A DNA stretch of 64,000 nucleotides, taken from positions 186,001 through 250,000 of the forward strand of contig BRON01000013.1 of the NCBI GenBank assembly GCA_024345305.1, written 5' to 3'. Of the stretch, positions 19,685 through 64,000 are shown piece after piece. How positions within the stretch are numbered: position 1 is the first letter of the stretch; every line of letters begins with the position of its first letter. This stretch comes from Mrakia gelida (Eukaryota; Basidiomycota; Tremellomycetes; Cystofilobasidiales; Mrakiaceae). Position numbers and translations under genes: made by a program. Below the pieces are notes generated by a model. The model saw only the letters and a list, made by a program, of their open reading frames with translations. It did no database searches and was not told the DNA's origin.

Positions 19685-22600
19685 TCAGGTCAGTTCTCCA
19701 CTACCTCCTTTCCTCCTCGAAGCGTAGCCGTTGTCCGTTTGACGTTCCTGGAAGGGAGATTGAGCTGCAGCGAGAGCCGCTGGTGGTCCACCGATCTCGG
19801 ACTTCGCGAAGGTAACCTCGAGACGATGGGTTCCGAGTGTTCTTCCTGGGTGGTCAGAGTCGTCGAAAATGAGTGAAAGAACGCGAGAACGAGACGATTC
19901 AGTAATAATGTAAAGACGAAGAGGTGGGACAAGAAGGAGCAGTGAGGAGGTAGACAGACGCGTACCGTTCATCTCACGTCGAGCTTCGTTCGCCGCTCTG
20001 AAGGTTGCGAACGCAAGGAAGGCGGTCGGAACAGATCTCTGGATCGATGGAACTCGAGAGCTTGTTATGAGAGAGCGAGAACGCGTCAGGATCTGGAGAG
20101 AACTGGTTGAAGGAGAGAGGGAGGAAGAGATCGAAGAGGTCAAGCTCACGCGATTGGTCGATGACCGAAGGCAGCGAAGGATTGACAGATCTCAGATTCG
20201 GTGAGGACTGGATCAAGGTTCTGAAGATGAGGAGGGACGTGTCGACACGATGAGCCAGAGAGGCATCCAAAGGGTCGGAAGAGGAGTGTGCGTCGGGTCC
20301 ACTCACCGAGAGAGAGAGGGTCCTGCAGAAGTCCTTCGAGGTTCGTTCCATCGTAGCATACGAGGGATGAATAGTTCGTGATCCAAGGTACTGTCCCTTC
20401 GAGCCCACAAGCGCGTTTCGAGCTGTTCGAAGGAAACGAAGAGGGCGGAGTCAAACGAGTCTCGTCGTCGAATGATGTGAGAACGACCGATGGACTCACT
20501 CGATTCTGGACTGTTGAAGCTGACGAAATCCATGATTGACTGGTCGTAGGAAGTGCGAGTCGTGACGCTGCGAGGAATAGCAAGGACGGAGGGTCAGCTT
20601 CGATCGAGACGACGCGTATGAGAGCAAAGGACCGAATCTAGAGCTCACTCGATGACGGTTCCGAATTTGGAGAAGAAGGAGAAGAGATCCCTCTGCGTGA
20701 TCAGAGGATCGAGGCCCTGGATGAAGAGAGAGACGAAACGCACGCGCGTGAGAGAGAGGTCGGGTTTTCGCCTGTGATTCTGAATTCTGACTCACGGGGA
20801 CGTGGATCATGCGCGGGTTGTATCCGTCACTCGCATCGGGACCTCCGGGTATACTCATGTCGTGCAGATAGGAAGAGTACTTTGTCGAGTCGGAAGGACG
20901 GCGAGGTCGAGGAGGTGGCGGAGAGCGCTCGAGAGGAAGTTGATTGAAGTACCGAAGGCTCATCTCTCGTCCTCCCAGATTGAGACCTAGAAAGCGAGAA
21001 AGACGAGTTTGGGTCAGTCTGGCTCGCGAGAGATGCAAGCAAGGAATCTCACCATCGAACTGTCGAGCCGCCTCGGCGCCTTGACGCGTCTGTTTGAACA
21101 AGACGAAGTCAGCTCGACGATCGACGTCCGACGCATATTCCCCAAGACTCATCAGCGAAGCGCGTACAGTGAAGATCAATCGAGCGCGAGCTGAGGAGTG
21201 GTCGGTCGCACGCTGAATCTCGATGCTGTCAAACGGGAGAAAAGGCGAGAGTCAGGACAAAGCGCGTCGAAAGGAACGGAGGGAAAAGAGCGACTCGCCT
21301 ACACTGTCCTGAGCCACGCAAGTATCGTCGGATGTCAGAGTCTTGAGTTCCGTAAGCGAGGCTCTGTAACGGAAAGCAGGTCAGGTGCGAATACGAGAAA
21401 GACGAAGAGAGGGAGAGAGGGAAGAACGAACCTCAGCCATCAACGTTCGAGAGTTCACCTCGTCTTCCTCCGCAAGAGCGCTCCTCGATGACGTGTATCT
21501 CGGACGAGGAGAAAAAGATCGGTCTCGAGATCTCGAGGGCCTAGCTTCGTAGTAGCTGAGTTGAGGGACGGGTGAGGGTGCAAGTGAGAGGCTCTTGACG
21601 AAGAAGATCGAGATGGGACGATCCTTGACGACGATGCCTGGGAAGAGAAGAGAGAAGGGAAGTCAGACGTTGGCGTACTCACCTTGAAGGAAGAGAGCTC
21701 ACCATCCAGTCTCTGAACGATCTCGGCTGCTCGACGCGTCTGAGCGAAAGGAACCGACGTCAAGGTCAACTCGAGTCGACAGAGCGAGCGGTTTTCACGT
21801 CACGGCGTAGCGTAGCGGCTCACAGGGAACTCCAGATGGGCTTGACATATTCCGTTCTCGATCGAGGTCTGAATCGTAATCCTGAAGAACGAAGGAAGAA
21901 CAAGACGGTGAGAACTCGAACGCGTCGAACGAAGCGAACGAGAATCCGATCGACTCACTCGGCACTCGCACTTCCGTAGATGTATCTCTTCACCTCCGAA
22001 ACTCTGAATCCAAGAGGCAAGTTCTGCGACGAGAGAAAGAAGAGGTTACCACTGAAAAACGAGCAACGAGAAGGAGCAACGAACGACGCACCTCGCAAAT
22101 CAACGATCTCGAATCGACCTCCTCCTGCTCGGTGAGACGTCGATGAGAAGAGGACGAGGCACCGACTGGAGAACTCGATCGGCTTCTAGAATTGAGAGGA
22201 AAGAGGTATGGTGAGTGTCAGCTGAGGAAGGAGAGCGAAGGCGGTGCGAAACGAGACGCGTCGCCACTCACCGAGTCGCTGACAACTTGCTGGGACGGGG
22301 AGAAGGCGATCTTAGGGCTTTGGCGTAGTAGGGATCTCTGAAGAACCAGCAGTTAGTCCACCAGTCACTCGTTTAAAGCTCGAAGTGAGTAGGGAGAAGG
22401 AGAGCGGACGAACAGCGACGGACTCCTAGAGGCTTGAGCTGGCGTGCGAGAGACGTCTTCTTGATGAGGCTCATGGCCGAGCGACCAGGCTCGATGAGAC
22501 CTGTACATAAGCCAAGAGCAGCGCATCAGTCCGTCGCTCGGCGAAGAGAAGAGGAACGAGAAGGAAGAGAGACGAGAACGTACCCCTGTTCGATGGATGA

Positions 22601-23021
22601 AGGGAGAAGAGTCGAAGTCGAAGCTGAGCCGAGCGTTTCATGACTTCCCTCATTTGACTCTCTCTCCATATGGTTCGCTGACCTGCTCAAAACCAGCCCT
22701 CAAAGCTCTCGTTAGCGTCTCAACCCATCCTCAACCTCTTCGGTGAGTCGAGAAGCTCACCTTCTCGACCAAGCTTCAATCTTCTCCGCTAGCGGATCCC
22801 TCTCCGTCTCCCTCTCCCTCTCCTCTCCCTTCGACGGCTCGATCTCGAGGTTTTGGTGGGGCGGAGGTGGAGTTGGCTTGGTGAAGGGTTGTTTGAGAGA
22901 TTGGAGAAGGTTGAAGCATCTGAGGAGAGAGAGGGGGAGAAGGGTCAGGAGAACGAGCGAAGGAGGGAGGGAGGGAAGGAAGGGAGTGGAGCCGAGCTCA
23001 CTCGAGCTCGACTTCGTCCAT
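19685..23021 (-). CDS. Multi-RRM family protein, member 1 (four RRM-like modules)
   Basis: Member of the local RRM family; RNA binding is inferred, role unknown. First exon 23002-23021 (20 nt) encodes MDEVELE, then CFNLLQSLKQP. A charged Pro/Glu linker follows, then two atypical modules opening RSLICENLPLGFRVSEVKRY and RTLMAESLAYGTQDSDIRRY, each closing on TRRAAEIVQRLDG or TRQGAEAARQFDG. Two more standard RRMs open GLDPLITQRDLFSFFSKFGT (exon 20649-20716, 68 nt) and NLDPVLTESEICQSFAAFGH. The RNP1-like strands are MDFVSF and AFLAFATF. Key later exons: 20500-20567 (68 nt), 20307-20422. Stop at 19685 (GGSGELT). Some 5' junctions between 21900 and 22950 are approximate. It is convergent with SYF1. 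Confidence 0.75.
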
Positions 23022-23584
23022 CGTGCCCGGTCCAGGGTAGAGAGAAGTGTCGGGTGTCGTCTGAGAGGGATTCGATATGTACAGTTGGGTAGAGGGACGA
23101 GTTTGATGAGAGAGTCGAAGCTGAGTAAGAGCAGGAGGGAGGCAAAGAGAAGGAAGGCAGGAGGTGGGGGTGAGCTCGACCTTTCCCTCCGCCCTCCGTG
23201 TCGGCTTCGTCCCTCAACGGCTGAGGTTCATAGCCCAGGATCTCCAGAGTATAGTCACCCACCTGGCGCAGTTTGGACGCTACGAGCACTCTGAATCGTC
23301 GAAAAGAGGGGACTTGTTGTGAAGACGAGATGGCCGTTTGACGTTCAAAACAAAACGAGCTCGTTCGCTCGTCCTCCCTTTCGTCGAGCGGTCGCGAAGG
23401 CGCGTCGTTCACACCAGCTAATCATGGAGAGAGCGACCTTCTGGCTGGCAGAGGATGATGCATGAAGGTAACCTAGAATCGAATCTATCGACGAAACGAA
23501 GGGTCGTGGAAAGTCGAAGAGCGAGACGAAAACAAAAACGAACGAAGGCGCGTCAACGAGAGGGAAAGAAAGAAAACAGCGAGC
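23022..23584. other. Upstream region of RRM member 1
   Basis: About 560 bases holding the promoter of the minus-strand RRM gene and the 3' end of the next minus gene. ORFs here are unsupported. No motif named. Confidence 0.35.
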
Positions 23585-25690
23585 TCAATTCGGCACCTCC
23601 ACCATCGATTCGAAGAACAGTGTGTCCATCTGAAGAAGCGAGAGTAGCGAGTCAGCGACGGAGACACGAGGATGAAGGAGAGAAGGAAGACAAGAACGAA
23701 CCTCTCCCTCGTCCTTATCGGCCAACGCGATCGCTCCCTTCAACGAGAACCCCTTGATGTAGACTGCTCGGAGGAGATGAAGATGGAGCATTCTCGAGGA
23801 GATCTGGAGACTGTGGGAGTGGGTCGACCCTGAGGGAGGGAGGAGAAAAGAAGGGGAGGTCAGTCGCAAGCGAAGGAAGCGACGACGACGTCGAACTCAC
23901 AGGGAGTTCCCTTCAGCTTGATCTCGTGGCAACCAGGTTCTTTCGAGAGAGGGCCGGAGTGCTTGATTCCAGCTGTCCAGGCAGCCTGTAGAACGACGAA
24001 GGGGAGGAGGAGGTCAGCGAAAGAGGGGAACACGCGTCGAACAAAGAACGAGACGAACGTTGATGTGATCCTCGACGCTTTCGACGACTGCTTGAGGAGC
24101 ATCGATAAGCCAGACTTTGTCGTCGTCTGATCAGAAAGGTAAGGGGAAGGGAGTCAGGGCTCGTCGAAAAGAGAGCGTAGGAGAAAAAGGGAGTGGAATC
24201 GACTCACCTTGGAAACTGATGACCGATGTCGATGAAACGAAAACAGAGAGAGATCAGCGAGAGGTCTGGAGAGTATCCTCCGCCGTACAACGAAGCTAAC
24301 GCACCTCATCGAAAAGAACTGAGTGGGAATCTCCGACGGCGCTCCCTCCTCGCGTCGCAAGTAAAGCGTGTCCTTCGAGGAGTCCTTCCCGCTCGCGTCG
24401 ATAGCAGCACAGAGGACATAGTTCTGCTTAGCGAGAGCCGAGAGGATGGTGCTCATCAACCTCCTCACCCTGGGAGGAAGGAAAAAAAGAAGCGGGTCAG
24501 AAAACGAACGCGTCGAGCTCGCTCCTCAAACAACGAACGCGACGAGCGAGTCCGAGGACAGCAAAGGATAAATGCTCACGATATACCAGCTCTTGTTCCT
24601 CTTGCCCCCCAAACTGTTCCCTTGAGGTGTACTTCCCATACTTCGGACGAAAGCATCGGCGAGGTAGTCGCTGGATCGTACGTCTTGCTGAACGAGTCCT
24701 TCGGAACGCCGTGGGAGCTGATCCCTTGAGGCCAGGCGTCTTGAACGGCGTGAAGGATGGGAGTGTGAAGAGATCCAGGGAGGTTGATGAACTGAAGGAC
24801 GTTGTCTATGGGGTTGCGAGGGCGAAGGCGAAGGAGGGGAGCAGAACGAGAACGAGAAGATGGCAGAGTTCGCCAAGGGAAGAAGAGAAGAAGGAAATCA
24901 GCACGAGCTCTTTCGCTTATACCCATTCCCGAATCTGGTTATCCTCCGAGAACAAGCGAGGGAGAGGGCTGGACTCACGACGAGACAAGGCTCTGAAGGA
25001 AGGGTGGTGGGACGAGAGTGCGAGAGTGAGATCAGTCAGCGCGGGTTTCTCCCCTTCAGCTGCCCTTCCCCAGCCGACCCACTACTTCGAATGTATACCG
25101 AGAGTTTAGAGAGAGAGAGGGAGAGTCACTTACAAGATGGCATAGCAGCAAGTTGTTCCCGAGAGACCGTTGCAGATCAAGACGCCCGAGTCGTCGAGGT
25201 TGACTCCGGCTCCCAAGCTCACGCTTGCTGATGCTGAGGAGGAGTGAAGAGAAGTCCTGGGAGATCCAAGACTGGGAGGAGAAGAGAGAGGTGGGACGCG
25301 ACGGGAGTCAGCTTGAGGGAGATATATACGAAAGAGAAGGAGGAAAAGCGAAGAGGGAATAGGAGAGAAGGGAGGAGGGAAGGGAAAGCGTCGAACTCAC
25401 CTGCTTGTTCCGTTTCCCGTTCTCGAACTCAGCGAGTCCTGGAAGAGAGAGTCCGCTCGAGAGGAAGAAGTGGATCCGACGGTGGATGTCCTGAGGATGG
25501 ATTTGGGGTTCCCAGAAGCAGAGCCTGAGGAGGAGGAAGGGGCAGCGGAAGGGGAGGAGGCGGATGAGGGTCCATCGAGGTTGGGGAGCGAAGAGTTGGA
25601 AGCTGCAGGCGATAAGGAAAGCGTTTCCAGTTTGGGAGAAGCTGATCCCGAGGACTGCTTGGTAGGGCCGCGGTGGAAGAGAGAGGGCAT
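23585..25690 (-). CDS. Conserved fungal hypothetical protein with two related domains
   Basis: Not assigned a function. Start MPSLFHRGPTKQSSGS at 25690 begins a Ser/Pro-rich disordered N-terminus of roughly 100 aa. Downstream exons encode DNVLQFINLPGSLHTPILHA, then a segment WEVHLKGTVW followed by RRLMSTILSALAKQNYVLCA, DASGKDSSKDTLYLRR, FQDDKVWLIDAPQAVVESVE, and then HEIKLKGTPW followed by MLHLHLLRAVYIKGFSLKGA and DKDEGEMDTLFFESM. The two blocks (hydrophobic strand, LKGTxW, R-[LM]-[LM] helix, small-residue strand, acidic turn, DTL) look like a tandem repeat of one domain. Similar proteins are, from memory, widespread in basidiomycetes but uncharacterised. Nine or so exons; several junctions approximate. 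Stop at 23585. Confidence 0.65.
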
Positions 25691-26181
25691 GGTGACAGTA
25701 GAAGGAAGGGCGGTTGAGATGGTGCTGGCCGCTGGGAGGAGAGCTCGACCTCAAAGGGACGACTCCGGTTTGAAGCGAGGGAGAGAAAGGTGTCGTCAGC
25801 TTTTGAAAATCTTCCGAAGAAGAAAAATCTTCTCGCTATCAGTCCAAAAGATGCTCTCGATGATGTAGAGATCGCTTCTGAACGTCTCTCTGCACTTTTC
25901 TCGCTCTGTTTGGTTCGAGAATTGTTCCTCTCGCCCGTCAGGCCCGCGACGCTCGTTCGTCGCCTCAAGGAAGCCAGGCAGATATCGATAAGAAGCAGAG
26001 AAGAGGGGGAGTCGGAAGTCCTTCATTCATGGTGTCGTAAATAGTCGTATAAAAGAGTGCAAAAGAGGGGAAAAGCATGTCGTTCAAGGCGTCGTCGCGT
26101 CGTCGTCCCTCGTCGTCTCCCACTCCCTCCTCGCCGCCTCGTCTCAACTGGATCAGGAAAGAAAGAGGGATGAAAGGTCTG
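25691..26181. other. Intergenic: hypothetical protein 5' flank / RRM member 2 3' flank
   Basis: About 490 bases. Contains short GAAGAAAAATC-type A-rich segments near 25810. No gene supported. Confidence 0.35.
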
Positions 26182-29100
26182 TCAGTTGCCGTCTCTTCGA
26201 GAGCTCGAGGAAGAGAATGTAACTCGCCGTCGTCTCTCGATCTCCTCGTCACGTCCCGCGTCCGAACGTCTCCTCGCCTGCTCGACTCTCGATGATTCCG
26301 GTGAAGAGAGATCGAACTTGGACGTGGAGGTTTGAACTCGCTGCGATCCCATCCTCTTGCCTGGAAGCAACCGAGCAAAGAAGAAGTGAGGGTCAGCGGA
26401 ACGTGATGAAAAACCTGAGCGACTCGCGCGACGCCCTCACCATCCATCTCCAGACGAGCTCGAGCCGCGTCCTCCTTCCGTTCAAATTGAACGAAACCGA
26501 TCATGAAGCTACCTCTTGAGTCCTTGGGCCAGCTGGTCTTGGCTCTGACGACGGAACACGTAGCGAAACAAGAGGCGGGAGGTCAGAACAAAGGATCGTG
26601 AAGAAGACGAAGAGGCGAAGAGGAAATCAGGACAATGCTCACCCGACGAGTGTTCCGAATCTCGAGAAGGTCCGAGCCAGGTCTTCTGCGTCGTAAGAAG
26701 GGTCGAGATCCTGAGACGAAGGTCCAAGTGTGTCAGGTTCGGCTCGTTGAGAGGATCCGAAAGGGAGACGACGGATCGGAGAGAGAACGAACTGACAGGT
26801 AGATGGTGTTCGTAGAAGCGGAAGGGGCACGGCTGTTAGCCCCGAGCTTGGAGTAGCTGACATCGGACCGTCGACGTCCAAGGAGCTGTCCGTTGGATGC
26901 TAGGAGGGCGGCTCGAGCTGAGGTTTCGGGAGGAGGAAAAGCGTCAGCATCAACTCGCGTTGTTCGAAGCTTTGAACTGCTTTCGACTCACCGTCGCGAG
27001 TATCTCGGAAGGTCACGAAACCAAGAAAGCTATCTCGAGATAAAGTCCTGACGCGAGCACTACAGCAGCAGAGAGGACACGAGCAGGAGCGTAGAGCAGC
27101 GTCAGTTGAGAGTCAATCGAGATACAGCGCGTCTCGTTTCGAGACTGATGCGACTGACCTCTCGATTGGCCCGAAGGGCGAGAAATGACGGAGAAGATCG
27201 CGCTCAGTGAAAAAAGGATCGAGATGCTGCATCAGAAGGGCAAAGGGAAGCGTCCGTTAGTCTCGATACGAGGAAGGTTGAGTCGAGATCAAGCTGTACT
27301 GACAGGGATGAAGAGCGTGTAGAGATCGCGCGATGGATCTTGAGATAAGACCGAAGGGGTAGATGATATCTCGTGACGATCTCGAGGAGTCGAGTAAGAT
27401 GGAGAGCGAGACCGAAGACGTCGTGAGGACGGTGAAGGAGGGGACGGGAAGGAAGGTCGATCTGCGACGAAGTGGCGGTCGTGATCTCTCCTCCTGGTTG
27501 ACGATGGAGATCTGCTCCTGTTTCTATACCACGAGTGATCAGATGTGCCAACCGAAGACCCTCTTCGAGCCTCGAAAACCGGGAAGGGAAGGAGGGGATG
27601 GACGCGTCGACGAACCTGGGAGAGAGCGACCTCCGACGACCGCGCGATTCCTCGACTCTGCATCAAGAAGCAAGACGGCGGGTAGTGATTCAGCAGTACG
27701 AGATCGAAGACCGAAGCTACGAGACGGCGAAGTACTGACGAGGGCGACGAGGGATGCCTTCCTCTGGAACTTGAGTCGTCGTTGGCCTTCCTCGGAGGGA
27801 CGAGAGAGGAGGTCGATGCTGCCGACAGATATACGAAGGGTCAACTCAGTGTGTGAGGAAGGGTTAGTCCGAATGATCGAGGCTCTCACATGTCGAGCGA
27901 GCCTTTGAACCCAGCCCTCCGTTCCTTCTTCTTCCCTTTCGAACCCTTGCTGATCCGCGACGATCGCTTCGAGGGAACATGCCATTCTGCTCTAGCGAGA
28001 CGGACCGAGAGTTCCGATGATCCGACGAGGTGGCCTGGAGAAGAAGCGAAGAAGAGGAAGGAGTCAGGCCCGAGTGTGCAACTTTCGAGATCACTCGTCG
28101 AAACGAACCGTTGAGAGCAGAGATGGCGTTTTCAGCCTCCGATGACTTCGAGAACTGCAGATATCCTATCAAAGAGAGGCTTGGCCTATGCATCTTGACG
28201 AACTTGAGCCTGCAGACGAAATTGGTTCGAGATCAGCCAAGGGTTCGACGCGTCTCGACGAAACCGGAAGAAAGGAACGAACGAACTCCGAGATCGATCC
28301 ATAACCCTTGAACAAATCCTTTACGTTCTCAGCCGTGTATGATGGATCGATGCCCTGCGATAACATTCAAGGATCAGGGCTCAGAAGGGAAGAGAGCGAG
28401 AGACTTCGACGTAGCTCACCTGGAGAAACAGCGTCCGGCTGCTCGCAGGTCGACCATCCTTCGATAGAGGTGCGGTATTGAGCCTCGGGCGCAGGCATCG
28501 GGACATCAGGAAAGTACCGGTAGTCTGTTCCAGAGCGAAGGCAGCTGAGAAGAGAGATGGCACGTCGTCAACAGCGGAATTCGACGCGAGGGAAGAGAAA
28601 CGACAGAACGACTCACCGTCTTTAGGAGATCGAAAAATGACGTAGCCATGGACGAGATAGCGTGCTAATTCCACGACCCTTGCACTGAGAAGGTTTGCGA
28701 AAGAATGGGAGAAGGTCAGCAAAGGCCTGCCTTCGTCGAGCGAGTCGAACCGCGACTGACGATTCCAGTTCGCCGAACGTGAGGAAATGTCTGAAGAGCT
28801 TAGTGTCGGAGACCTTGGGATCCAATTTCTAGAATGGCAACAAGTCAGCTCAAGGTGAGACGTCGAGCTTCCGAGAGGGAGAGAGGGTGAGAAGGGACCG
28901 ACGGGGATGAACAGAGCTGAGCCGTCCGAGCTGTGGTCGTTCGGTTCCTCCTCCTCCTCCACCAGTTCGCCCTCCTCCAGTTCTCCGTCCTCAGGTTCCT
29001 CCAGAGGCTCAGGTGTGCTTTAAACAAGGAAACATCCGCATTAGCGAGCGAGAACGAAGAGAGGCAGGAGAGGCGAGGTCCGACTCACTCGCTCGAGCCG

Positions 29101-29560
29101 CCATTCGTCGACGGGGGAGCTTCGAGGTTCTGACTGCTTCAACCGAAGGCGAAGACGCGACTGGTCAGCGATCATCACAGCAGTATATACACCATATCGT
29201 GATCTAGCAATACTCACTTCATCAGCACATCCACATCAACCTCGTCTCCTTCCTCAACCTTCAAACCTCCCTTCTCGTCTCCCTTCGCTCCCTCCTCCAT
29301 CCTTCCGAGCCCAGCCTTCATATCCTCAAGGAGCATGAAATCCCTCGCCGCCTTCGAGTCAGGCAAAGGTAGATCCAAGCTACGAAGCATCTCGAAACAT
29401 CTGCGAAGAATGAACACAAGAGATCAGCTCGAGGAAGCGAGAGAAGCATCGAGGCAACGCGAAGGGGAACTCGAGCTCACTGAATGTCAACCTCGTCCAG
29501 CTCCTCTTCTATACGTTCCCGAGCTTCGGCGAGATCTGCACTCGTATCCTCTGATAACAT
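26182..29560 (-). CDS. Multi-RRM family protein, member 2 (four RRMs, RS-rich middle)
   Basis: RNA-binding family member. The N-terminus (exons 29481-29560 and 29218-29400) carries EEELDEVDIQ then CFEMLRSLDLPLPDS, the family motif. After an acidic linker (EPEDGELEEGELVEEEEEPN) RRM1 opens KLDPKVSDTKLFRHFLTFGE (28761-28828) and RRM2 GIDPSYTAENVKDLFKGYGS (28287-28354), with RNP1-like GYLQF. An RS-rich linker GRRRSLSPRSRSPSSTRRRD precedes RRM3 HLDPFFTERDLLRHFSPFGP (27159-27226) and RRM4 DLDPSYDAEDLARTFSRFGT (26643-26710) with RNP1 MIGFVQF. Ends RRRRVTFSSSSSRRDGN. I join the halves because the second lacks the family N-terminus and the phases fit if a GTTCAA or GTTCGA donor near 27920-27950 is used. 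Otherwise it is two genes, 27886-29560 and 26182-27666. Confidence 0.7.
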
Positions 29561-30249
29561 TGCCCGTCGTCACTACGAGAGCGGGTGAAAGTCGTTTGTT
29601 GCTGATGAGCTGAGGGCAAGGGAACGACGAACGGGTCGACGGAAGGAGAAGGTGATGAGCTCGACCTTTCCTTCTTCGGCTCGCCCCCTCCCTCTCTTCT
29701 CAATCCGGCTCTTGATCAAGAAGACCACTGAGCAAGATTACTCACCTGTAGATATCCGAGTGGTCTTCTGGCTAATCGAGCAGTTTCAACGAAAAGAAGG
29801 AGGATGGTGGGTTTGGGAACGAACGAGATCCGTTCACGCTCCTCGCGAGGAGGCGAGGTGAAGCTCCGTGGTCCTTCTTCTCTTTCCTTCGCGACCCAAA
29901 CAGAACGACGAAAAAGAGCACCTGACCTCAAGAGGAACATCGATAGCTCTGCGACCGGATCTCTCATGCTCACTCCATCGAGAAAGACAGATCGCTGTGC
30001 GCTTTTCCCCTCCCTCACGGTGATCGAGCCTCGTCGACGCGTCGCGAAACAACACGCACCGACGCACAGCTTCGTGCTGCTGCTCTCATCACACCTGCAC
30101 CCCTGTCACAATAAGATCGTACTCCGTCCTTGGCTTCCTTCTCCCTCCGAAGGTCGTCCTCTCGACTCTCGAGTCCTCCAATCTTGAAAAGACATCGTCC
30201 AAAGCGAGATCGTGAACAACGAACGAGAGCCAAATGAGAAGCTAGATAT
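29561..30249. other. Upstream region of RRM member 2
   Basis: About 690 bases; promoter of the minus-strand RRM gene and 3' flank of the next. A GACGCGTC palindrome is near 30035. No supported gene. Confidence 0.35.
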
Positions 30250-31189
30250 CTACTGCTGACTCTCCAACTTCACCCTCACTACCTCCTCCATCTCCTGATC
30301 CTGATCCTGATCCTCCTCATCTGCACTCCCTCCTGCCCTCACCCAACTCTCCTTGGGCCTCACCGACGACGCAACCACTCCCAACGACCCAGTCACTCCC
30401 ATCAGCCCACTCAACGCCACCCTGGTCGCTTCGGGACTTCTCCTGGGCACTTCCGAGTCCACTGATTTCGGTGTGGCCGATCTGCGAGGCGAACGAGGAG
30501 GAGGAGAGGCCGACGACGCGTTTGACCATCGCTGAGGTTGTTGTTGCTGCTTGGCCTCCTTTCGAGCGAGGAGTTTGGCTCGAACGAGAGAGAGCTTGGC
30601 TGATCGGATAGGGCCGATGGAGGAGTCCATTTCGGGTGAGGAGTGAGAGGGGGGAGGGGTGGAGGGTCCTGAGGAAGTGGAGGACGACGACGAAAGGGAG
30701 GAGGGCGAGGGAGGCGCGTCGTCGAGTTGGTTCCTTCGTGGAGGAGGAAGAGGGAGTTGGATTTGAGGGATCATGTGGAAGGGCTGTTGATGTTGGGATT
30801 GGAGGAGGAAGAGTTGAGTTTGGAGGGAGAGGGAAGACGCAAGTGGCTGAGAGAGAGGACGAAGGAGATCGAAGAGCGAAGGACAAAGAGCGAGGGATGA
30901 AGAGGGAAGTCAGAAATAGCCCGAGAGTCGACGAGCGAAGAGAAGAGAAAATCTGAGAGGGACTCACGTCTTCTTCAGCTCTCTTAGCACCGAGGATAGC
31001 GAGAAGAAGCTCTCTGTCCCCTCCTCCGTTCTGAGCAAAGGCATCGAGGATTTCTCTGAGGGAAGGCGGGAGAAGGTGGAAGGTGCTCGAGGAGGGAGGA
31101 GGCGTCGTCGAGGTTGATTGATCGTGTCCTTGCTGCTGAAGTTGAGAGGTTGAAGCGACGGGAGGGAGGGTAGCGGTAGAGCTGGACAT
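30250..31189 (-). CDS. Hypothetical Ser/Pro/Gln-rich protein
   Basis: Two exons, 30968-31189 and 30250-30846, give a 272-aa protein with clean phases. The first exon encodes a disordered start and a short predicted helix pair, LPPSLREILDAFAQNGGGDR then ELLLAILGAKRAEED. The second is Pro/Ser-rich and contains SIGPIRSAKLSLVRAKLLAR followed by KEAKQQQQPQ, a basic amphipathic helix, and a C-terminal acidic Asp/Gln/Glu repeat (EEDQDQDQEMEE). No catalytic motif is visible. Composition suggests a nuclear or scaffold role, which is only inference. It lies between an RRM gene and an F-box-like gene, all on the minus strand. Confidence 0.65.
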
Positions 31190-31843
31190 GGTGGTGATGA
31201 TGAGAATGCGAGGCAGGAAGAGGATGATGTGGTTAGAGGGAAGGGAGCGAAGCGAACAAGAGGAAGAGAGGACGAAAAGACGAGCGTCGCCAAGACTTCT
31301 ATTCCTGATGGATTCGAGTTCTGACTGGATTCGAGGGAAGATTTTGGTATGAGGAGTTAGCTGAAGTGATGCAGAATCCAATCGAAGACCTACTGAAGCT
31401 CTGGGAGAAAGATTGAGAGGGAGGGAGGGTGAGAGGGTCGTCGGGTATTCACGTCGCGTCGAAGCTGAAAATAAAGCATCCTTGGCAGAAACGACCAGCG
31501 CCCTCGAACGTCTTCTCTGGTAGAGGGCACCCTCGTGAAAACCTACGAAAACGCCACACCTTTCTCTCGGTTGTTGTAGAAGCGAACGGTAGGGAAGAGG
31601 AGGGACGGGCACAAGGGCTCGCTCGATGTCAGCCTCGCTCGACTCGCTTTTCTCGATTCCGTCTTAGCTCTCTTTCTATACTCGTTCAAGAGCCTCGACT
31701 TGACGCAGAAACTCACGTGTATTTGGGAGATTCCTCCTCAATTTACTGAGACTCTGCTCGCAGCGACGACAAGATCGCGCTTTCAGGTCGGCCCCTTGGA
31801 TGAAGAAGCGGATTCGGTCAGAACCCAGAGATCGTCAAGATTT
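31190..31843. other. Intergenic: hypothetical protein 5' flank / F-box-like 3' flank
   Basis: About 650 bases with no supported gene. Confidence 0.35.
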
Positions 31844-33581
31844 TCAACAAAGCTGCTGAGTCGCAACCTCGAAGATCCGGGACGAGAGGAGGGGGGTTGA
31901 TGAGCTGAAAGGGACGAGACGCGTCGTCGTGATCGTTTTGAAAGACGACGGACGACGCGGCTCGAAGTGAAGAACGACCAAAGAAGACATTCGATAGTGA
32001 TGGCCTGTGGTAGAGCGAAGGTGTCGAGTAGACGCGAGGGAGCCAGATATCGGTTCGAAAGCTAGGACCGAGCGAAGTCTGCAAGAGAGAGAAGAAGAAA
32101 GAGAGGATTAGCTTTCAAAGGTCGAACGCAGTTGAGGACCAGTAAAAGTTTCAGATCGAGGGAGCGAGCTCACGAACAGGGGGTAAATTTGCGTGCGTGA
32201 GACCTGTGAGCAAAGCGAGAGAGAAAGAGGATCAGGACGAGTCGACAGGAGGAACGACGAGACGCGTAACTCACGTCGAAAGGCGACTCATAGTGAGATA
32301 TCGTGCGTAAAAGGAGGTGGAGAGGTTGATAAAGGTGCGGATGAGGGAGCTGCTGATGAAGGGAAAGGGAAAGTGAGCGTCAGCGACGAGAAGAAGAGCG
32401 CAGAGGTCGAAACGCGACGCGTCGAAGGTCGAACTCACGCGGAAGTGTGGAGCGAAGTACCGAGATGACGTTGATGTCCAAAGAAGCGTAGGTTCACTGA
32501 AGATAATAGTGAATATCGGGAGGGAAAGAAGGTCAGCTAGGGAGAGACGGACGAAGGACAGAAAATCGGAAAGGACTGACCTTGCAGTCGACTTCGAAAC
32601 GAAGGAGCTCGAGCATCCTCTTCCTCTCCTGTACTTCTTGACCGTCCTTTTCCAACGACTCTCGCACATGGTAAAGAATGCGACTGTGCTGCTCCTGGGA
32701 TAAAACCTGAACCACAACCTCCTTGACCTTTGAGCACGACAGGAGGCAAGCGTCCCTCTCTCCCGACACCTCAGTAAAGCAGTGGATCTCGAAAGGAGTG
32801 TCGTGGTCTGAACTGTTCCGGAGGTCAAAATATAGTACGAGGGACCCATCCTGGAGGTTGAGAAGGAAGTTCAAGTCGGTGATGAAGTTGAACCCAAAGC
32901 GGGGGGAGGAGGGACGGAGGAAGACGTCCGACCAAGACCAGGTTTCGACTCTCGTCCACTTCTTGAGCTCGAGCGCCAACGGGAAGGGGCCATCCTGATC
33001 CGGATCTCCTCCAAAGGGGGACGTGAAGGTGACGTGAGCCGGGTCAAAGACGTCGAGCATGGAGGAGTAGAGGTCGAAAGGGTCGGGCTCGTCCTCCTTG
33101 TAGCCGTAGTCGTCTCGCATCGCCGCTCGTCGACAGAACTGGACGTCCAACATTTCAATTCGGAGAGGAGACGAGGAAGGAAGTCGAGCGGTAGTGATTT
33201 TGAAGGCCCGTCGGGCGAAGTGGTCGTCTGGGACTCCGAGGAAGGTGAAGGTTTGGAGTCGAGCGAGGGAGAAGAGGTGGTCGAGGTGAGGAGCGAGGGA
33301 GGTGGGTTTCTGTTAGAAGGCGAGACGGGTCAGGGTCCTTTGTAAGATGAAGATGTTAAGGAGATACTTACCCTCTTGTAAAAGAGTCGAGCGAACTGGT
33401 ACAGTCCCTTGATGACGATGTTTCGATAGAGGAAGGGAGATGCGGCCTCGAGGAAGGAGAGCGAGACGAGGCAGGCTTGGACGAGGCTGGGAGCGTCGCA
33501 GAATGAGAGGATCGCTCGTTTCATCTCAACGGGGAGGGAGGGAAGAGAGTTGAGTTCTTGGGAGCGAGTTCGAAGGGCCAT
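31844..33581 (-). CDS. F-box-like protein, paralogue 1
   Basis: Predicted substrate adaptor of an SCF-type ubiquitin ligase, from an N-terminal F-box: LPSLPVEMKRAILSFCDAPS, then LVQACLVSLSFLEAASPFLY. Exons: 33372-33581 (210 nt), 32586-33309 (724 nt), 32439-32496 (58 nt), 32275-32349, 32174-32203, 31844-32078. These sum to 1332 nt, a complete 443-aa ORF, only if intron 2 begins at a GC donor (GCAAGG). The canonical GT five bases later gives an immediate in-frame TGA. The body (ARLQTFTFLGVPDD, VETWSWSDVF, KVKEVVVQVLSQEQHSR) matches the copy at 42697. Its start is 403 bases from the divergent RRM member 3. Confidence 0.75.
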
Positions 33582-33984
33582 GTTTGGGTTGGATTGGGAG
33601 GGACGCTGGTCGTTGCGAGGGAAGGAGGGGAGGTGAGCTCGTCGTCCTTTTGGTTTCCGAGTGGAGCTGCCTCTTTTCCTTCGCTTTATCGTCCATCATC
33701 CCCTTTTCTTGACCTCAAGCTCTCAGAGGCTATATACATCTAGGAGTTCCCGAAGCTTTCAATAAATCGATCTCTGTGAGTCCTGGACGAAGCGTGCGAG
33801 AGGTCCGAGGAGGGAGGGACGGAGAGGTCGAGCTCACCGTCCTCCCTCCTCCCATCCTCCCTCCCTCCTTCTCGCTCTACTCCACTCACAGCCACGACTC
33901 TCTTCCTTCACCTGCCTAGCACTCCACCAGCATCTGACGTCCTTCTCCGAGCTTGACCCTAAGACTCTATCCCAACGGCACAGA
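33582..33984. promoter_or_regulatory. Divergent promoter region (F-box paralogue 1 / RRM member 3)
   Basis: About 400 bases between divergent starts. Pyrimidine-rich (CCTCC)-type tracts at 33838-33875. No named motif. Confidence 0.4.
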
Positions 33985-36485
33985 ATGGACGAAGTCGAAC
34001 TCGAGTGAGCTCGGCTCTGGCTCCTCCCTCCCTCTTGCTCGGTCTGATGATCTTCTCCTCCTTCCTCTCAGATGCCTGAACCTTCTTCGAGATCTGGGAG
34101 TACCAAGCGACCCATCTCAGTTTCCCCCAGCACAGCAACTCGAGCTGAGAGGCAGGGAGTCAGGTGAGAAGATTGGAGTTGGAGCTGATCCCTCGGAGGA
34201 GAGGGTGGATGCCTCGAGCCGGTGAGCGCTGCCTCTCTGCTTTTCTTCCATCAAGCCTTTGGCTGAGTAGAAACGCTTGAACTCTTTGTTACTTGGGGAG
34301 ATCTTTGACGGAGATGCATCACGGGTCGATTCGAGAGAGGGAAAGGGACTGGGAGTCGAGGTGAGTTCGCGACCTCTTCCTCGTCGACTTCTCTCCAAAG
34401 CCAACGCTGACCTTCGTTCTCTCGTACGATTGTAAATCATTAGAGGTCAATCTGCTTCACCAGATCCTCGATATCCTCTCGCATCGGATCAGGAGAGAGA
34501 AACGAGGTGCGTCCGATGTCTCTTGGCTCCTCGTCCTACCTTCCTTTTTGACTGAGACAGCTTTCTTCCTGCTTGATTAGCTTCGAATCGACTGAGACTA
34601 TCGACCTATATACAAAGTACCCCAGGGACGGTCACGATCCCTATACCCTCTACCTCAAGGTGAGTGCTCATTCGCGCTGCTGACTCGTCGGCGCGTCGTC
34701 TCCTCGAGACGCGTCCTGCTTCGACGGCCTGCTGATGCCACCACTTGATGCCTCTCTTGTGTCGCTACCGGGACCCCGCAGGAAATGGATCCAGGACTGC
34801 AAATACACGACCTTCGGAGTCTCTTCTCCCCGTTCGGTCAACTCATCGAGTGCGTCCAACGTCGTGTCTTTCGGTTGATGGGACAGACTTCTGACGTCTC
34901 GCTCCCCTCCTTCATGTCAAAGCGTTCGCATCAGACTCTCTGGTCGAAAAACCGTCGGCTTCGTTCAGTTCAAGAGAACCCTCGACGGTTCGACCTCAGT
35001 GGCTCCCGTCTTTTCATCGATCTCACCTTGCCAACCCGATCTGCCTTCCTTTCCCCTCCTGAACGCGACAGCTGACCGTGCTCTCGAAAAGATGAACCAC
35101 ACCGTCATCGGATCCAAGCGAGTCGCCATCATATACGCTCAACGTCGATCCGAGCCACCTGCCGTCGCGTCCCAAGATCCGTCTTGCCGAACTCTGCTGG
35201 TCTCCGTGAGCGATGTTTCCACCTTCCTGAACGCGAAGTTGCACTGAAGTACCACTTCTTTTCGGTCTCAGTCCATCGATCCCACTCTCAAATCGTCAGA
35301 CGTCCAACAAGCCTTCGAGAGGTTCGAACGAGTCCTCGAGTTAGTCTGGCGTCTCCGCCTTCGATCCCTCCCGCTACGACCGACGATAACTGACTCTCTC
35401 AACCTACGCCTGCAGTATCCAAATGCTCGACTCAAGTAAACGCCGACCGATCATCATCGCCTTCCTGATCTTCGAGAACGCGTCGTGTGCTGCTCGAGCT
35501 CGAGAAGCTATGGACGGTGAGCTCAATCCATTCGCTCGTCATCGCTCATCGGGATGGCACGCGATGAACTTTCTTTTGTTTGTTCCAGGAATGACTCTCG
35601 GATCTCGAACGATGACAGTCTCGTTCGCGAGGAAAGAACGACTCGTTGAATCACCCTCCCCCTCCTCATTCAGGCGCTCCTCGACCCGCTCCATCGACAG
35701 TATCACGGATACAAGAAGTCGCCCGGGAAGATCTAGATCCAGATCTCCCATCTCTCGAACTCCCCTTCCTCGACACGACGACGCACCACGAACGCTGATC
35801 TGCCAGGTCAGTCTCGTCTCTCGATTCTCGTTCTCTTTCGACCGACCCACTCGCTGACTCTCCTTTATGCTTCACCAGAACCTACCTCACTTCATCACTG
35901 TTGGCTTCCTCAAGGAGCGGCTCTACGGCTGCGCAGATGCATGGTGTGTCGCGATTTCCTTACTTTACCTTCTCGTCGTCGTGTTCGTTTGCGTTTCCGA
36001 CCGTCTCCTTCTTTCGTTCTCCAATCCCAGGATCACCCTCCTCCCCGATCCCGATGGAGACTCCGCTTCAGCCAGTCTCAGGTTTAGGGTAAGTTCTTTC
36101 TCCCTTGCTTGAGTCTCGTCAACGAAGGCCCGTCGAACTGATCTCATCGACGCTCTTTCGTTTCGTTTCGTTTCGTTTCGTTTCGATCGTTTCGTACAGA
36201 CTCGAGAAGCAGCCGAGTTCTTCAAGCACGACCACGGTGCGTCCGAGTCTCCCTCTATCTCCTCCTATACCTCGTCATCCCTCCTCGCTCGCATCAGCTC
36301 ACTCAGACTTCTCGCTATTCCGCCTCGCGTCGGATCGCGAAACAGGAACTGGCTTCGTCCTCGGTTCGCGACGAATCTCGCTCTACTTCCAGGACGATCT
36401 ACCTCAGTATCAGGGGTACTCCTCGGCAACAGGAGGCTTCCGCTCGGACGTTTGGTCGGCGAGTTCTGAGGGGAGGAGATGGTGA
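33985..36485 (+). CDS. Multi-RRM family protein, member 3 (three RRM-like modules)
   Basis: RNA-binding family member, the only one on the plus strand. First exon 33985-34004 (20 nt) encodes MDEVELE, followed by CLNLLRDLGVPSDPSQFPP. After a poorly resolved linker (34200-34660, alternative splice choices) come RRM1 EMDPGLQIHDLRSLFSPFGQ (34782-34849, 68 nt) with RNP1 VGFVQF (exon 34923-34987), and RRM2 SIDPTLKSSDVQQAFERFER (35272-35339, 68 nt) with IIIAFLIF. An RS-rich linker (SRPGRSRSRSPISR) leads to an atypical module, TLICQNLPHFITVGFLKERL, akin to SLICENLPLGF in member 1. The C-terminus ends RSDVWSASSEGRRW. RNA targets are unknown. Confidence 0.75.
36156..36185. repeat. (TTTCG)6 microsatellite in an intron
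   Basis: Six perfect TTTCG units near the 3' end of an intron of RRM member 3, close to the acceptor at about 36200. Confidence 0.95.
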
Positions 36486-42696: not shown

Positions 42697-44456
42697 ATGG
42701 CGTCGTCCAGATCTTCCTCGGCACCCCACCCTCTTCCCTCCCTCCCTGTCGAAATGAAACGAGAGATCCTCTCCTTCTGCGACGCTCCCACCCTCTTCCA
42801 AGCCTGTCTCGTCTCGCACTCCTTCCTCGAGCTCGCATCTCCCTTCTCCTATCGAGACATCGTCATCAACGGACTCAAGCAGTTTGCTACACTCTTCTAC
42901 GAGGAGGTTAGTATCTGCTCCTCATTCAAATACTACTCAAATGCCCCTGACCTGTCTTCTCCTCTACCAGAAACCCACCTCCTCCGCTCCTCACCTCGAC
43001 CACTTCTTCTCCCTCTCTCAACTTCGAACCTTCACTTTCCTCGGAGTCCCAGACGACGGATTCACTCGATACGTCATCCACATTACCACCGCTCGCCTCC
43101 CTTCCCCCTCACCGCTTCGAATCGAAACGCTGGACGTCCAGTTTGGTCGAAGAGCCGGTCTGGGAGGCTACGGATACAGCGAGGGCGAGAACCCGGAACT
43201 CTACTCCTCCATCCTCGAGTTGTTCGATCCAGTCCACGTCGCCTTCACATCCCCTCCTGGAGAAGATCCGTACCACATGCTTCCCTTCCCGTTGGAACTC
43301 GAGCTCAAGAACTGGACGAGACTGGAAAGCTGGTCTTGGTCGGACGTTCGCGTCTGGCCCACCCGTCACTTCGGCTCCCACTCCATCACCACCTTGGAGT
43401 TCCTTCCTCAACTTCAGGACAATTCCCTTGTTCTTTTATTCAACCTCAGGAAGGAGCCAGACTACGTCCGTCACGTCGAGGCCGTGTGCCTCCAGGAAGT
43501 GGTGGCCAAAGACGAGGACGAGGAGTTCTGGCTCTGGTCGTGCCAAAAGGTCAAGGAGGTCGTGCTTCAGGTCTTGTCACAAGAGCAGCGCAGTCGCCTT
43601 CTTAGGGAGATGCGAGAGTACTTGGGAGGGGGGGGCGTTCAGGATGCAGACGAGACGGAGAGAATGCTCGAGCTCATTCGCTTCGAGTTCGACGGCGAGG
43701 TGAGCACTTTCAGATGTCCTCCACTTCGCGCCGCCTCTCTACTTATTCTCTGTTCTTTCTCTGTCTTCACCTAATCCCAGTGATCCTCCGCTCCTTCGAA
43801 CACGCATTTCGACTCGCAACTTCGCTTCCTGCTGCCTCGTGAGTTCGTTCTTGGAGAGACGCGTTGCGGCCTTGAACCTCTACGCTCTCGTTTTCGTCGC
43901 TGACGTTCGTTGTCCCTTTCCCTTCCTCAGCAACGGCCTCCGATATAACTATGCCACTCTCTCCATCTCCATGAACGCACAATATCTCGCTATGGGTTGC
44001 TCTTCGACGTGAGTTCCGCGTCTCGTCCTTTTTCTCTTCGACTCGAATCTTGCCTCGTCCTCACTTTTTTCTCTCTCTCTCTCGCTTTGCACGCAGACCT
44101 TACGCTCACAACTCCAGCCCGAATCGTAAGCTCGGCTCATCGATTTCGATTCTCCACCCGTCCTGCGCCTCGTTCGACCTGCGAGAGCTGATCCTCTCGT
44201 TCCCTTTCTCTCTCTCGCAGACTTCGCTCGTCCCCAGCTTCCGGCTCCTACCCCGATCCCTCGCGTCCATTCGTCACCTTTACTTTTACCACCGGTCATC
44301 ACGATAGAATGTACTCTTTACTCGCTCTGCTCTTCAACTCACATCGTCGTCTCTCGACGCGTCTCGTCGCGTTCAGCTCAGCGACTCCTTCCCTTCCATC
44401 ATTCTTCGTCCGTTTCGCCATCGCATCACAGTCGTGTATATATCGAGGGAAAATAG
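42697..44456 (+). CDS. F-box-like protein, paralogue 2
   Basis: Sister of the gene at 31844-33581. Exons: 42697-42906 (210 nt), 42971-43694 (724 nt), 43781-43838 (58 nt), 43931-44008, 44097-44125, then 44221 onward. The F-box reads LPSLPVEMKREILSFCDAPT, then LFQACLVSHSFLELASPFSY. Matching body motifs are LRTFTFLGVPDD, LESWSWSDVR and KVKEVVLQVLSQEQRSR. As in paralogue 1, the frame continues only if intron 2 starts at GC (GCGAGG, base 43695); the GTGAGC at 43700 would give an immediate TGA. Exon 5 is 29 nt against 30 nt in paralogue 1, so the last exon's homologous frame (TTGHHDRM) is entered only with a one-base adjustment. As read, it ends at TAG 44454-44456. The C-terminus is therefore uncertain. 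Confidence 0.7.
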
Positions 44457-48007: not shown

Positions 48008-49846
48008 ATGGCTACCTCCTCCTCCTCTCCTCTCACCTTCACCCTCCTGAACGAGGCCGAGTGCTCTTCTCGAGTCGGACTTCTCTCGTTCACTCGCCCG
48101 TCTGATGGAACTCACCTCGAGATCGAAACTCCTGGATTGATCCTCAACCTGGAAAGAGGAGTCCTTCCATACATCTCAACCGACAACAAACAGAGATCAA
48201 ATCTACCCTCCTTCGCGCACACTTCTCTCGATACAACGTGAGCTCGACGAAGCTCACCTCTTCATTCCTCCTTCCCTCTCGTTTTCCCACTCGCTCGACG
48301 CGACTGACTTCCGGGTTCTTCCTCTTTCTTCAGCCTTCACCTCCCCACCCCCTTATCGACCCTCCTCCCTTGCTCTTCAACTCCCCATCCGCTGCACAAG
48401 CACCTCCTTCTCCCACCTCGTTCGACTCTCCTCTCCCTCTCGCTCTCCAACCCCTCGTCCCACCTCCTCTCCCAACCTTACCAGAACAACCTCATCTCAG
48501 CAATCACTTCAAACGGATTCAAGGATGTCGCCCCTAAAACCTACTACGACTCGGCTTTGGCTCTGAAACCGGACATCATCTGGGCTGCAGCGGACACTCG
48601 AGGAGGGATTTCTGGGAAAGGGGATGCTCAGGTTGGAGCGGGGAAGAACGAGGGAAAGAGGGCTGAGAGTAAAGGAGTGGAGAAGAGTTTGAGGTGGTTG
48701 GGTGAACTCGTAGAAGCTGCCGCTGCTAAGTCGGAGTCGGGCTCGACGCCTGTGCTGTGGCAGGAGTTGGTGGGAGGGTCAGATCCGTTCGCGAGGAAAG
48801 CGTTCGTTGAGGGTTTGCTCGCTCCCTCCTCCGACCCCAACACCTCTACAACCTCGTCGCTGGACTCCCACCTCTCTGGATACACCCTCCCTCTCCCCAC
48901 CCTCCGAGCACGTCTCTGCCCTTCGACCATCACCCCACCCTCAGTCCTCACCCTCCCTCCATCGTCGCACCACCCCCTCCCCTCCTCCTCGTTCCTCCCC
49001 CTCCTCACCCCCTTACTCCAACCCTCCCTCTCCCTCCTCCCCCAAACCAAACCCCGCTACGCCCCCGCCGCCTTATCACCGCACGAAATCCTCGGTCTCG
49101 TAGGCGACCTGGGAGTGGATCTCTTCGACGCGACGCTCGCACACGAGGCCACCGAGATGGGAGTTGCGTTGGAGTTCCAGTTCCCCCTTCCTGAGGGCTG
49201 GGAAGTCGGGGAGGAGAAGAAGGAGGTGGAGGTGGGGATTAATCTGTACGATGCGAAGTGGGAGATGTGTTTCGAGCCGCTCTCGGATGGGGGTGTGAGG
49301 AGTTTGGCGAGCAATGGAGGGAAGGGTGAGAGGGAGGTTGGGGAGACGTTGGTTCATTGCTCGGTTTCGGCGAAGGAGAAGGTCGTTGGAGAGGGAGAGG
49401 AGGGGGAGCCGCTGACGAGGGCTTATGTCCATCATTTGTTGATGGCTCATGAGTGAGTCGTCCTTTTTCTCTCGCCTCGTTTCTTTTGCGACGCGTCTTT
49501 CTCCCTCTCTCCTTCCTCTCTCCCTCGACCAACCTAACTCCTCCCTTCCCTCCCCTCCCCTTCCCCATCCGTGCACCACAGACTCCTCGCCTCCATCCTC
49601 CTCCAATCGCACAACATCGCCCACCTCCAAGCCTTCCTCGCCTCGATTCGCTCGACCCTCCTCCTCGGCCAGTCCGTCTTCGACCACGAGCGGGCAAGAT
49701 TCGAGCGGTACTACTCTGGCGAGATGGGAGTGCTAATGGAGGCGAAGAAGTTGAGGCTTGGGGTGAAGAAGGAGAGGGGGAAGGGGAGCATGGGGAAGGA
49801 TAGAAGTGGGAAGGTGGGAGATGGGGAGGGGAGTGGGAGTGATTGA
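48008..49846 (+). CDS. QTRT2: Queuine tRNA-ribosyltransferase accessory subunit 2 homologue
   Basis: Non-catalytic partner of the eukaryotic tRNA-guanine transglycosylase, which swaps guanine 34 for queuine in GUN-anticodon tRNAs. Exons 48008-48237, 48334-49452 and 49582-49846 give 537 aa. Family segments: RVGLLSFTRPSDGTHLEIET, TPGLILNLERGVLPY, DVAPKTYYDSALALKPDIIW, LGLVGDLGVDLFDA, RAYVHHLLMAHELLASILLQ and SHNIAHLQAFLASIR. In this family the zinc site is CxCxxC plus a His; here the CxCxxC position reads CSVSAKEK, keeping only the first Cys, while the YVHHLL His is present. A Glu/Gly-rich insertion (EKVVGEGEEGEPLTR) occupies the rest. The C-terminal tail is basic. It may be a diverged or zinc-free subunit. 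Confidence 0.85.
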
Positions 49847-63700: not shown

Positions 63701-63927
63701 GGGAGTGGAGAGAGGGAGTGAAAGAGAGTCAGTTTGAGGAGCCTTCTCGAAGAGAACAACAACGAGAAGAGAAAGAGAAGGACGGGAAGGGACGGAGAGA
63801 CGTCGCTCGTCTCCTCCCTCCAGATCTCGAGATGCGAACGAACCTCCAACGAAACCAAAACAGAGGTAGTGTCATGACTCATCCGTATCGATGCCCTTGA
63901 TGCTTGTGAGGGTCCCAGATAATCAGA
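60750..63927 (-). CDS. FCP1: RNA polymerase II CTD phosphatase FCP1 (N-terminus beyond right edge)
   Basis: Nuclear phosphatase that removes phosphate from Ser2/Ser5 of the Pol II C-terminal domain. The first visible exon reads SDYLGPSQASRASIRMSHDT, typical just before the FCPH domain. The catalytic motif is SLIVDLDQTIIHATVDPTVG (DxDxT form). Next are YEMHVYTMGTRAYAEKVCEV, FFGRRILSRDESG, MVVIIDDRSDVWEGSRNLVK and FFVGIGDINSSFL. A long Ser/Glu-rich spacer precedes a BRCT domain: VLRGCRLLFSGVIPLGA, QVTHLLAKQ, KIVHPSWLIDSIAQFRRLDE. The acidic C-terminus ends MEAWAKELEGSFEGS. A Lys/Gly/Thr low-complexity insertion (TTTTTKGKGKRRNPNEE) splits the catalytic domain after the DxDxT block. About 10 exons are visible; the 5' end lies beyond base 64000. 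Confidence 0.93.
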
Positions 63928-64000
63928 CCTGCAAACGAAAAACCAAAGCTCAAAATCAAGGTCAGCTCGGTCGGACCGAATCTGCCCTCCCTCCCTTTTG

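Follow-up and report, generated by a model that had tools for sequence, protein, structure and literature searches.

A Mrakia gelida gene family with a common head and variable RRM arrays

A 64,000-nucleotide window of the genome of Mrakia gelida, a cold-adapted basidiomycete yeast (contig BRON01000013.1, here C13, positions 186001 to 250000) carries four genes, g1 to g4, which together with six further copies on the same 1,351,869-base contig (g5 to g10) encode proteins built from a shared N-terminal head and arrays of RNA recognition motifs (RRMs). The explanation that we favor, and consider probable though well short of settled, is a Mrakia multi-RRM family with a common head and arrays of three module classes (A, B, and C), whose copies were scattered by duplication and inversion and recombine with one another, with A-B acting on mRNA and C and the head acting on protein. 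The copies look like a young, recombining family, which is a variant of the RRM family and not a new kind of system. Going by sequence, we propose that the family be defined by head exons 1 and 2, joined across a phase-2 intron, followed by A/B/C modules. The full models of g1, g3, g4, g5, g7, and g8 have this layout; g2, g6, g9, and g10 have it with a diverged head, with GTC for the start ATG, or with damaged parts.

The spliced models of g1 to g4 were produced with a splice-site and codon program and then curated by hand. All four are credible, intron-dense, multi-RRM genes, and their ends match the gene limits given in the original prediction, which had described them as related genes with two to four RRM modules. 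That description held, as RRM_1 (PF00076) scored over the Pfam cut-off in every one, the remaining modules being called by comparison within the family. On the minus strand, g1 (19685-23021) encodes 599 amino acids in 21 exons with GT-AG junctions throughout and an open frame; its head is followed by C-C′-A-B, and RRM_1 detects three of these four modules (1.2e-22). Also on the minus strand, g2 (26182-29560) has an acidic N-terminus, a diverged head, and four modules in the order A-B-A-B, all detected by RRM_1 (2.4e-45; halves joined), in a model that is provisional in the linker from 27740 to 27522 and at 27056, where the exon start lacks an AG. The plus-strand gene g3 (33985-36485) encodes 441 amino acids ending in VWSASSEGRRW, with the head followed by A-B-C. 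By the spliced model and the module tree, its modules A and B lie at approximately 34639-35145 and 35185-35655, and these two are the ones that RRM_1 detects (2.4e-21); module C, at approximately 35786-36420, belongs to a class without most of the RNA-contact aromatics. Finally, g4 (55108-57409, minus strand; 399 amino acids) has the head and two diverged RRM modules, A and one without an assigned class (X), one of them detected (4.8e-12). Open multi-exon frames were found in g1, g3, g4, g5, g7, and g8, the g7 model having one GC donor and a stop just past its modelled end.

The shared N-terminus that had been noticed in these genes proved to be a two-exon head. Exon 1 reads MDEVELE in g1 (23002-23021, minus), g3 (33985-34004, plus), and g4 (57390-57409, minus), with the phase-2 intron at an identical place in all three. 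Exon 2 opens with a C.NLL-like stretch (C.NLLQSLG.P-like) in g1 and g3 and with CYNTL in g4. The equivalent in g2 is diverged and lies inside a longer N-terminus: its exon 1 (29481-29560, minus) reads MLSED...LDEVDIQ up to a phase-2 donor, and exon 2 continues with CFEMLRSLDLP. The linkers had been described as RS-rich (rich in arginine and serine) or acidic, and here the result was divided. The counts of RS plus SR dipeptides in six models were reached by 29, 31, 64, 156, 228, and 807 of 1000 shuffles, which is near the shuffled level, and no stretch of 50 residues contained more than 26 R+S (eight model pieces), so the RS richness is modest and that part of the description is weak. The acidic part stood for g2 alone, with 16 D/E per 30 residues against 7 to 10 in the others (seven pieces).

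Three module classes occur in different orders

Modules of classes A, B, and C could be distinguished by sequence and intron layout. Class A has introns in phase 0, phase 2, and then phase 1 within helix 2; class B shares the first two and has its phase-1 intron after helix 2; class C has introns in phases 0, 2, 0, and 1 and a TR.AAE.V..LDG-type exon of 37 bases. We then placed 31 modules, labelled beforehand, in a tree of 79 columns, which took in g4 X without a class label and left out the C of the M. frigida relative described below (cut off), the fourth module of g6 (half), and the g10 remnant of B. Class C fell on one side of a branch (support 98/95), as did class A (86/76). Pairs across loci were also seen, namely g1 C2 with g6 C (98/94) and g2 B2 with g9 B2 (98/93), and within class C the modules of g9 and g10 made up a third branch. 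Long branches led to g2 A1, g4 A1, g4 X, and g8 C1.

A tree per module had been proposed along with the claim that these genes differ in module number and order, and it supports shared classes in different orders. In addition to the orders of the window genes given above, we read A-C in g5, A-B-C in g7, g8, and the M. frigida protein (as in g3), B-C′-A-B in g6 (the last module partial), C-A-B in g9, and C-A in g10. All of these orders except that of g4 could be read as parts of an ancestral A-B-C-C′-A-B array.

All members found lie on contig C13

We searched the M. gelida assembly GCA_024345305.1 (25 contigs, 34,857,517 bases; a 2025 paper, PMC12749792, also gives 25 contigs and 34.9 Mb) for further copies. 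Ten members with RRMs were found, every one of them in the part of C13 from 205 to 578 kb. This count is a lower bound, the genome outside C13:1-308,700 having been searched by pattern and, exon by exon, by protein. When as many as 2 mismatches were allowed, a 25-base exon-1 pattern gave seven matches in 34.86 Mb, all on C13, and the reversed pattern gave none. Since the pattern was built from g1, g3, and g4, the independent matches are the other four, which we opened and modelled; all were family genes (g5 to g8). With as many as 3 mismatches, a looser pattern gave 22 matches in the genome: the same seven at 0 mismatches, three more at 2 mismatches, all on C13 (274128, 294648, and 1272941), and 12 unassigned ones on other contigs at 3 mismatches, where the control also yields 1. 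The matches at 274128 and 294648 are the family genes g9 and g10, in which GTC replaces the start ATG. With a profile of head exon 2, the whole of C13:1-308,700 yielded g1, g2, g3, g4, g9, and g10 at scores of 25.2 to 34.2, which are partly by construction because the profile includes these six, and the next score was 15.4. A match at window position 41857 (score 13.0) was read and judged to be chance.

Protein matches off C13 appeared to be at RRM level only, with best E values of 0.027 (g3), 1.7e-4 (g7), 0.021 (M. frigida protein), and 1.5e-5 (g2). Four other RRM-bearing stretches of C13 gave no match to the C profile and only weak ones to the A+B profile (best, 3.1e-07), and we judged them to be other RRM genes. 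The third additional match of the looser pattern, g11 (C13:1272941; L011:742-2840), has an exon 1 reading MDAIELE and an exon 2 opening with CLDLLRELGVP. No RRM was detected in the 4.8 kb examined there; the head exons are followed by a hydrophobic, membrane-like frame with no Pfam family over the cut-off.

Relatives in other genomes

Among 5.8 billion proteins, we found one full-length relative, the Mrakia frigida hypothetical protein BDY24DRAFT_63723 (P0001). A search with the family alignment returned five proteins at E ≤ 0.001 among 7,993 scored, with this protein at 1.7e-84 and the runner-up at 2.1e-21 with 28% coverage. It has the head MDDVELECWKLLQSL, a linker with RS runs, and modules A-B followed by the start of C, and most of its length aligns with g3 (34% identity) and with g7 (35% identity). 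It differs from the family genes in that it is the sole such protein among the candidates scored and its model ends inside C. Predicted alone, its structure had a mean pLDDT of 44.9 and a pTM of 0.27, and the head was modelled as helical at residues 3 to 15 with low confidence. A search with its N-terminus retrieved only the protein itself among 251 candidates, and g2 gave four weak partial matches with 18 to 44% coverage among 7,991 scored. No named one-to-one orthologue was present among the candidates scored in the profile searches, in agreement with the statement that no known fungal family could be recognized. The family is likely Mrakia-specific, likely being the fitting word because the protein database may miss other Mrakia proteomes or contain broken gene models. 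The original prediction had called the set lineage-specific and rapidly diverging; the family reading is supported, and the wording "rapidly diverging" has its basis in how far the paralogues stand apart. Our literature searches returned no paper on lineage-specific RRM expansion in fungi, and the papers on Mrakia genomes and RNA binding were off-topic as judged by their titles and the openings of their abstracts; the main text of PMC12749792 contains neither "rna-binding" nor "rna recognition."

These searches bear on the possibility that the genes are diverged paralogues of a known multi-RRM protein, of the PABP, nucleolin, Nop4, Gbp2/Hrb1, or Pub1/HuR type, and no new family, which we regard as unlikely. 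The best PDB match of the A+B profile was a PABP chain (6r5k; 1.2e-50, four stretches) and that of the class C profile was nucleolin RRMs (chain 9cb5; 4.7e-22), and Foldseek on the poor M. frigida model named Pub1, Hsh49, HuD, HuR, and PABP among others, to which we give little weight. However, such PABP and nucleolin matches are what any RRM gives, and the one full-length relative is unnamed, the g2 matches are partial, and the M. frigida N-terminus retrieves nothing else. A four-RRM run at C7:1256002-1257317 may moreover be the canonical PABP. The family resembles PABP/Pab1 in having several tandem RRMs but differs in its variable module order and its own head, and no PABC/MLLE domain was found in Pfam scans of g1 to g4 and g7. 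With nucleolin it shares, besides the profile match, the acidic region of g2, but none of the eight model pieces counted contains an RGG, and the family differs in its head, its module order, and its number of copies. The combination of RRMs and short RSRSP runs recalls SR or SR-like proteins of the Gbp2/Hrb1 type, but the composition given above amounts to no true RS domain. Both also have an atypical last RRM, which in Gbp2 is the third. As a pattern, the TLO genes of Candida albicans are also similar, being a family of regulators that expanded in a single fungus and whose 5′ part is conserved while the 3′ part diverges (PMC5908203). They differ in encoding Med2 Mediator subunits and in the positive selection reported for them, which was not seen here.

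Signs of recombination between copies

Two pairs of copies carry signs of exchange. The genes g9 and g10 lie 20 kb apart in opposite orientations and share a tract of 812 columns that is 97.7% identical, introns included; outside it, identity is 77% across 100 columns on the upstream side and 64% across 600 columns on the downstream side. None of 1000 column shuffles reached such a tract, and its sequence fits gene conversion between the copies.

The second pair is g3 and g5, each of which stands head to head with an F-box gene. In the window, this gene lies at 32271-33581 on the minus strand (uncurated, with an approximate low end), with an F-box-like match (4.1e-07) on 33375-33581. A block comprising the F-box gene, the shared promoter, and g3 exon 1 (32200-34036) is 82% identical to C13:361701-363557 at g5. 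It spans at least 1.84 kb, its far end having been sought as far as 32200. The promoter is 83% identical, and the similarity of the block stops in intron 1. From there on, 38 to 62% of aligned exon positions and 34 to 61% of aligned intron positions are identical (exon 15 not covered), about the level of a forced alignment. Because the introns are as diverged as the exons while the promoter stands at 83%, g3 and g5 appear to consist of two parts of different ages, and the simplest reading of the junction is a swap of head and promoter. The same query gave short matches at exon 1 of g1 (76% over 97 bases) and g7 (89% over 50 bases).

Selection and RNA-contact residues

The ratio of nonsynonymous to synonymous divergence (dN/dS), estimated by the NG86 method, was 0.13 to 0.67 in nine of ten comparisons, the tenth having an infinite dS; dS is high in these comparisons and the values are rough. 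They point, on these rough values, to purifying rather than positive selection; no ratio exceeded 1, which with such high dS is weak evidence. At the RNA-contact positions, leaving out the M. frigida rows and g4 X, the RNP1-5 aromatic is kept in 10/11 A, 8/8 B, and 1/9 C modules, and the RNP2-2 aromatic is present in 8/11 A, 3/8 B, and 0/9 C modules. From these residues, A-B is expected to touch RNA, and C, which lacks most of the aromatic contacts, is expected to bind a protein partner.

These values also bear on a second alternative, a recombination-fed repertoire of RNA recognizers in conflict with RNA viruses, killer plasmids, transposons, or organelle RNAs, to be likened to the restorer-type pentatricopeptide repeat (PPR) clusters of plants. 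Clustering on one contig, the varying module order, the conversion tract, and the head-swap junction would all suit such a repertoire. However, dN/dS was below 1 in every comparison with a value, and the acidic head does not by eye resemble a mitochondrial presequence, and we hold this alternative to be quite improbable. In a related and similarly doubtful proposal, the chromosome would be a reservoir that makes new RNA recognizers by recombining a docking head and promoter, via the phase-matched intron 1, onto shuffled RRM arrays. If this were true, Mrakia would hold an RRM counterpart of modular recognizer repertoires, with possible use against RNA parasites or in cold adaptation.

A third alternative is that the family is mostly dead, its pseudogenes left over from one or two working genes. 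The damaged copies and the long branches of g2 A1, g4 A1, g4 X, and g8 C1 are in its favor, and decay of g6 and g10 is possible. The open multi-exon frames of six genes, the low dN/dS, and the conserved head peptide argue against it for the family as a whole, and its probability seems to us lower still.

Several points weigh against the family of head and A/B/C arrays that we prefer. The g6 gene has what looks like a frame break and one module of which only half is present, g10 stops early, and g9 and g10 have GTC where the other copies have the start ATG. In the module tree, class B did not form one side of a branch (2 changes are needed), the bootstrap values were still unsettled, and good support was obtained for only 6 of 28 inner branches; the class labels had been set from sequence and introns, which means that the tree confirms the classes without testing them blindly. 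Even among A and B modules, few or none retain the RNP1-3 aromatic (A, 2/11; B, 0/8; C, 3/9), and RNA binding may for this reason be weak. All exons are predictions, and Pfam sees only part of the modules.

Proposed history and function of the family

Taken together, our preferred reading would run as follows. Duplications and inversions would have spread copies of an ancestral array such as A-B-C-C′-A-B along the chromosome, and each copy would have lost different modules. Gene conversion would then have acted between two of the copies, and in another the head and promoter would have been replaced through intron 1, an event in which the frame would be kept because the intron phase is common to the copies. 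Modules A and B, in tandem like PABP RRM1-2, Pub1, or HuR, would bind single-stranded mRNA. The head may form a short helix through which every member docks on the same partner, in which case the paralogues would recruit one complex to different sets of mRNAs.

It is difficult to observe how new RNA-binding proteins originate, since the majority of families with several RRMs are ancient and conserved. In this seemingly young family, the steps appear to be still legible, in class-specific introns that label the modules, one putative conversion tract, one putative head-swap junction, and an A-B-C form in a sister species. If expressed, the family would offer a natural experiment on the ways in which multi-RRM proteins acquire new targets.

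Confinement to one contig and neighboring genes

We compared the confinement of the family to C13 with that of an F-box paralogue in the window (42697-43774, plus strand; Pfam F-box-like, 4.7e-06). With the protein encoded at 42758-43774 as query, 41 matches were obtained in all, some being pieces of one gene. The five best copies were on C13 (itself and four at 49 to 62%), the next five were on C19 (32 to 39%), and weaker ones were on many contigs. Confinement to one contig is thus not peculiar to the RRM family. Close copies in this genome tend to share a contig, a pattern that local duplication with later inversions would produce.

The wtf genes of fission yeast are concentrated on one chromosome, and a selfish or meiotic-drive family would likewise account for ten of ten members on one contig, but with the closest F-box copies confined too and searches for STE3 and Homeobox_KN matching other contigs only, we consider this explanation very improbable. 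C13 was also rejected as a mating-type region, since STE3 matches were on C16 (4/4) and Homeobox_KN matches on C11 and C14 (2/2), with none on C13. Two of the matches to STE3-type pheromone receptors lie ∼37 kb apart on C16 (465013-466017 and 503471-504508), a pairing that bears on the mating system of M. gelida.

The GC content of the window was 53.0 to 58.5% in 2-kb steps; a value of 55.8% is given for the M. gelida strain studied in PMC12749792. Four long open reading frames (ORFs) in the window had no Pfam family over the cut-off. Elsewhere in the window, the ORF at 48308-49456 (plus strand) matched queuine tRNA-ribosyltransferase (PF01702, 1.2e-10), and the frames at 63337-64000 and 61191-61871 (both minus strand) by eye resemble an FCP1-type C-terminal domain (CTD) phosphatase with a BRCT-like part.

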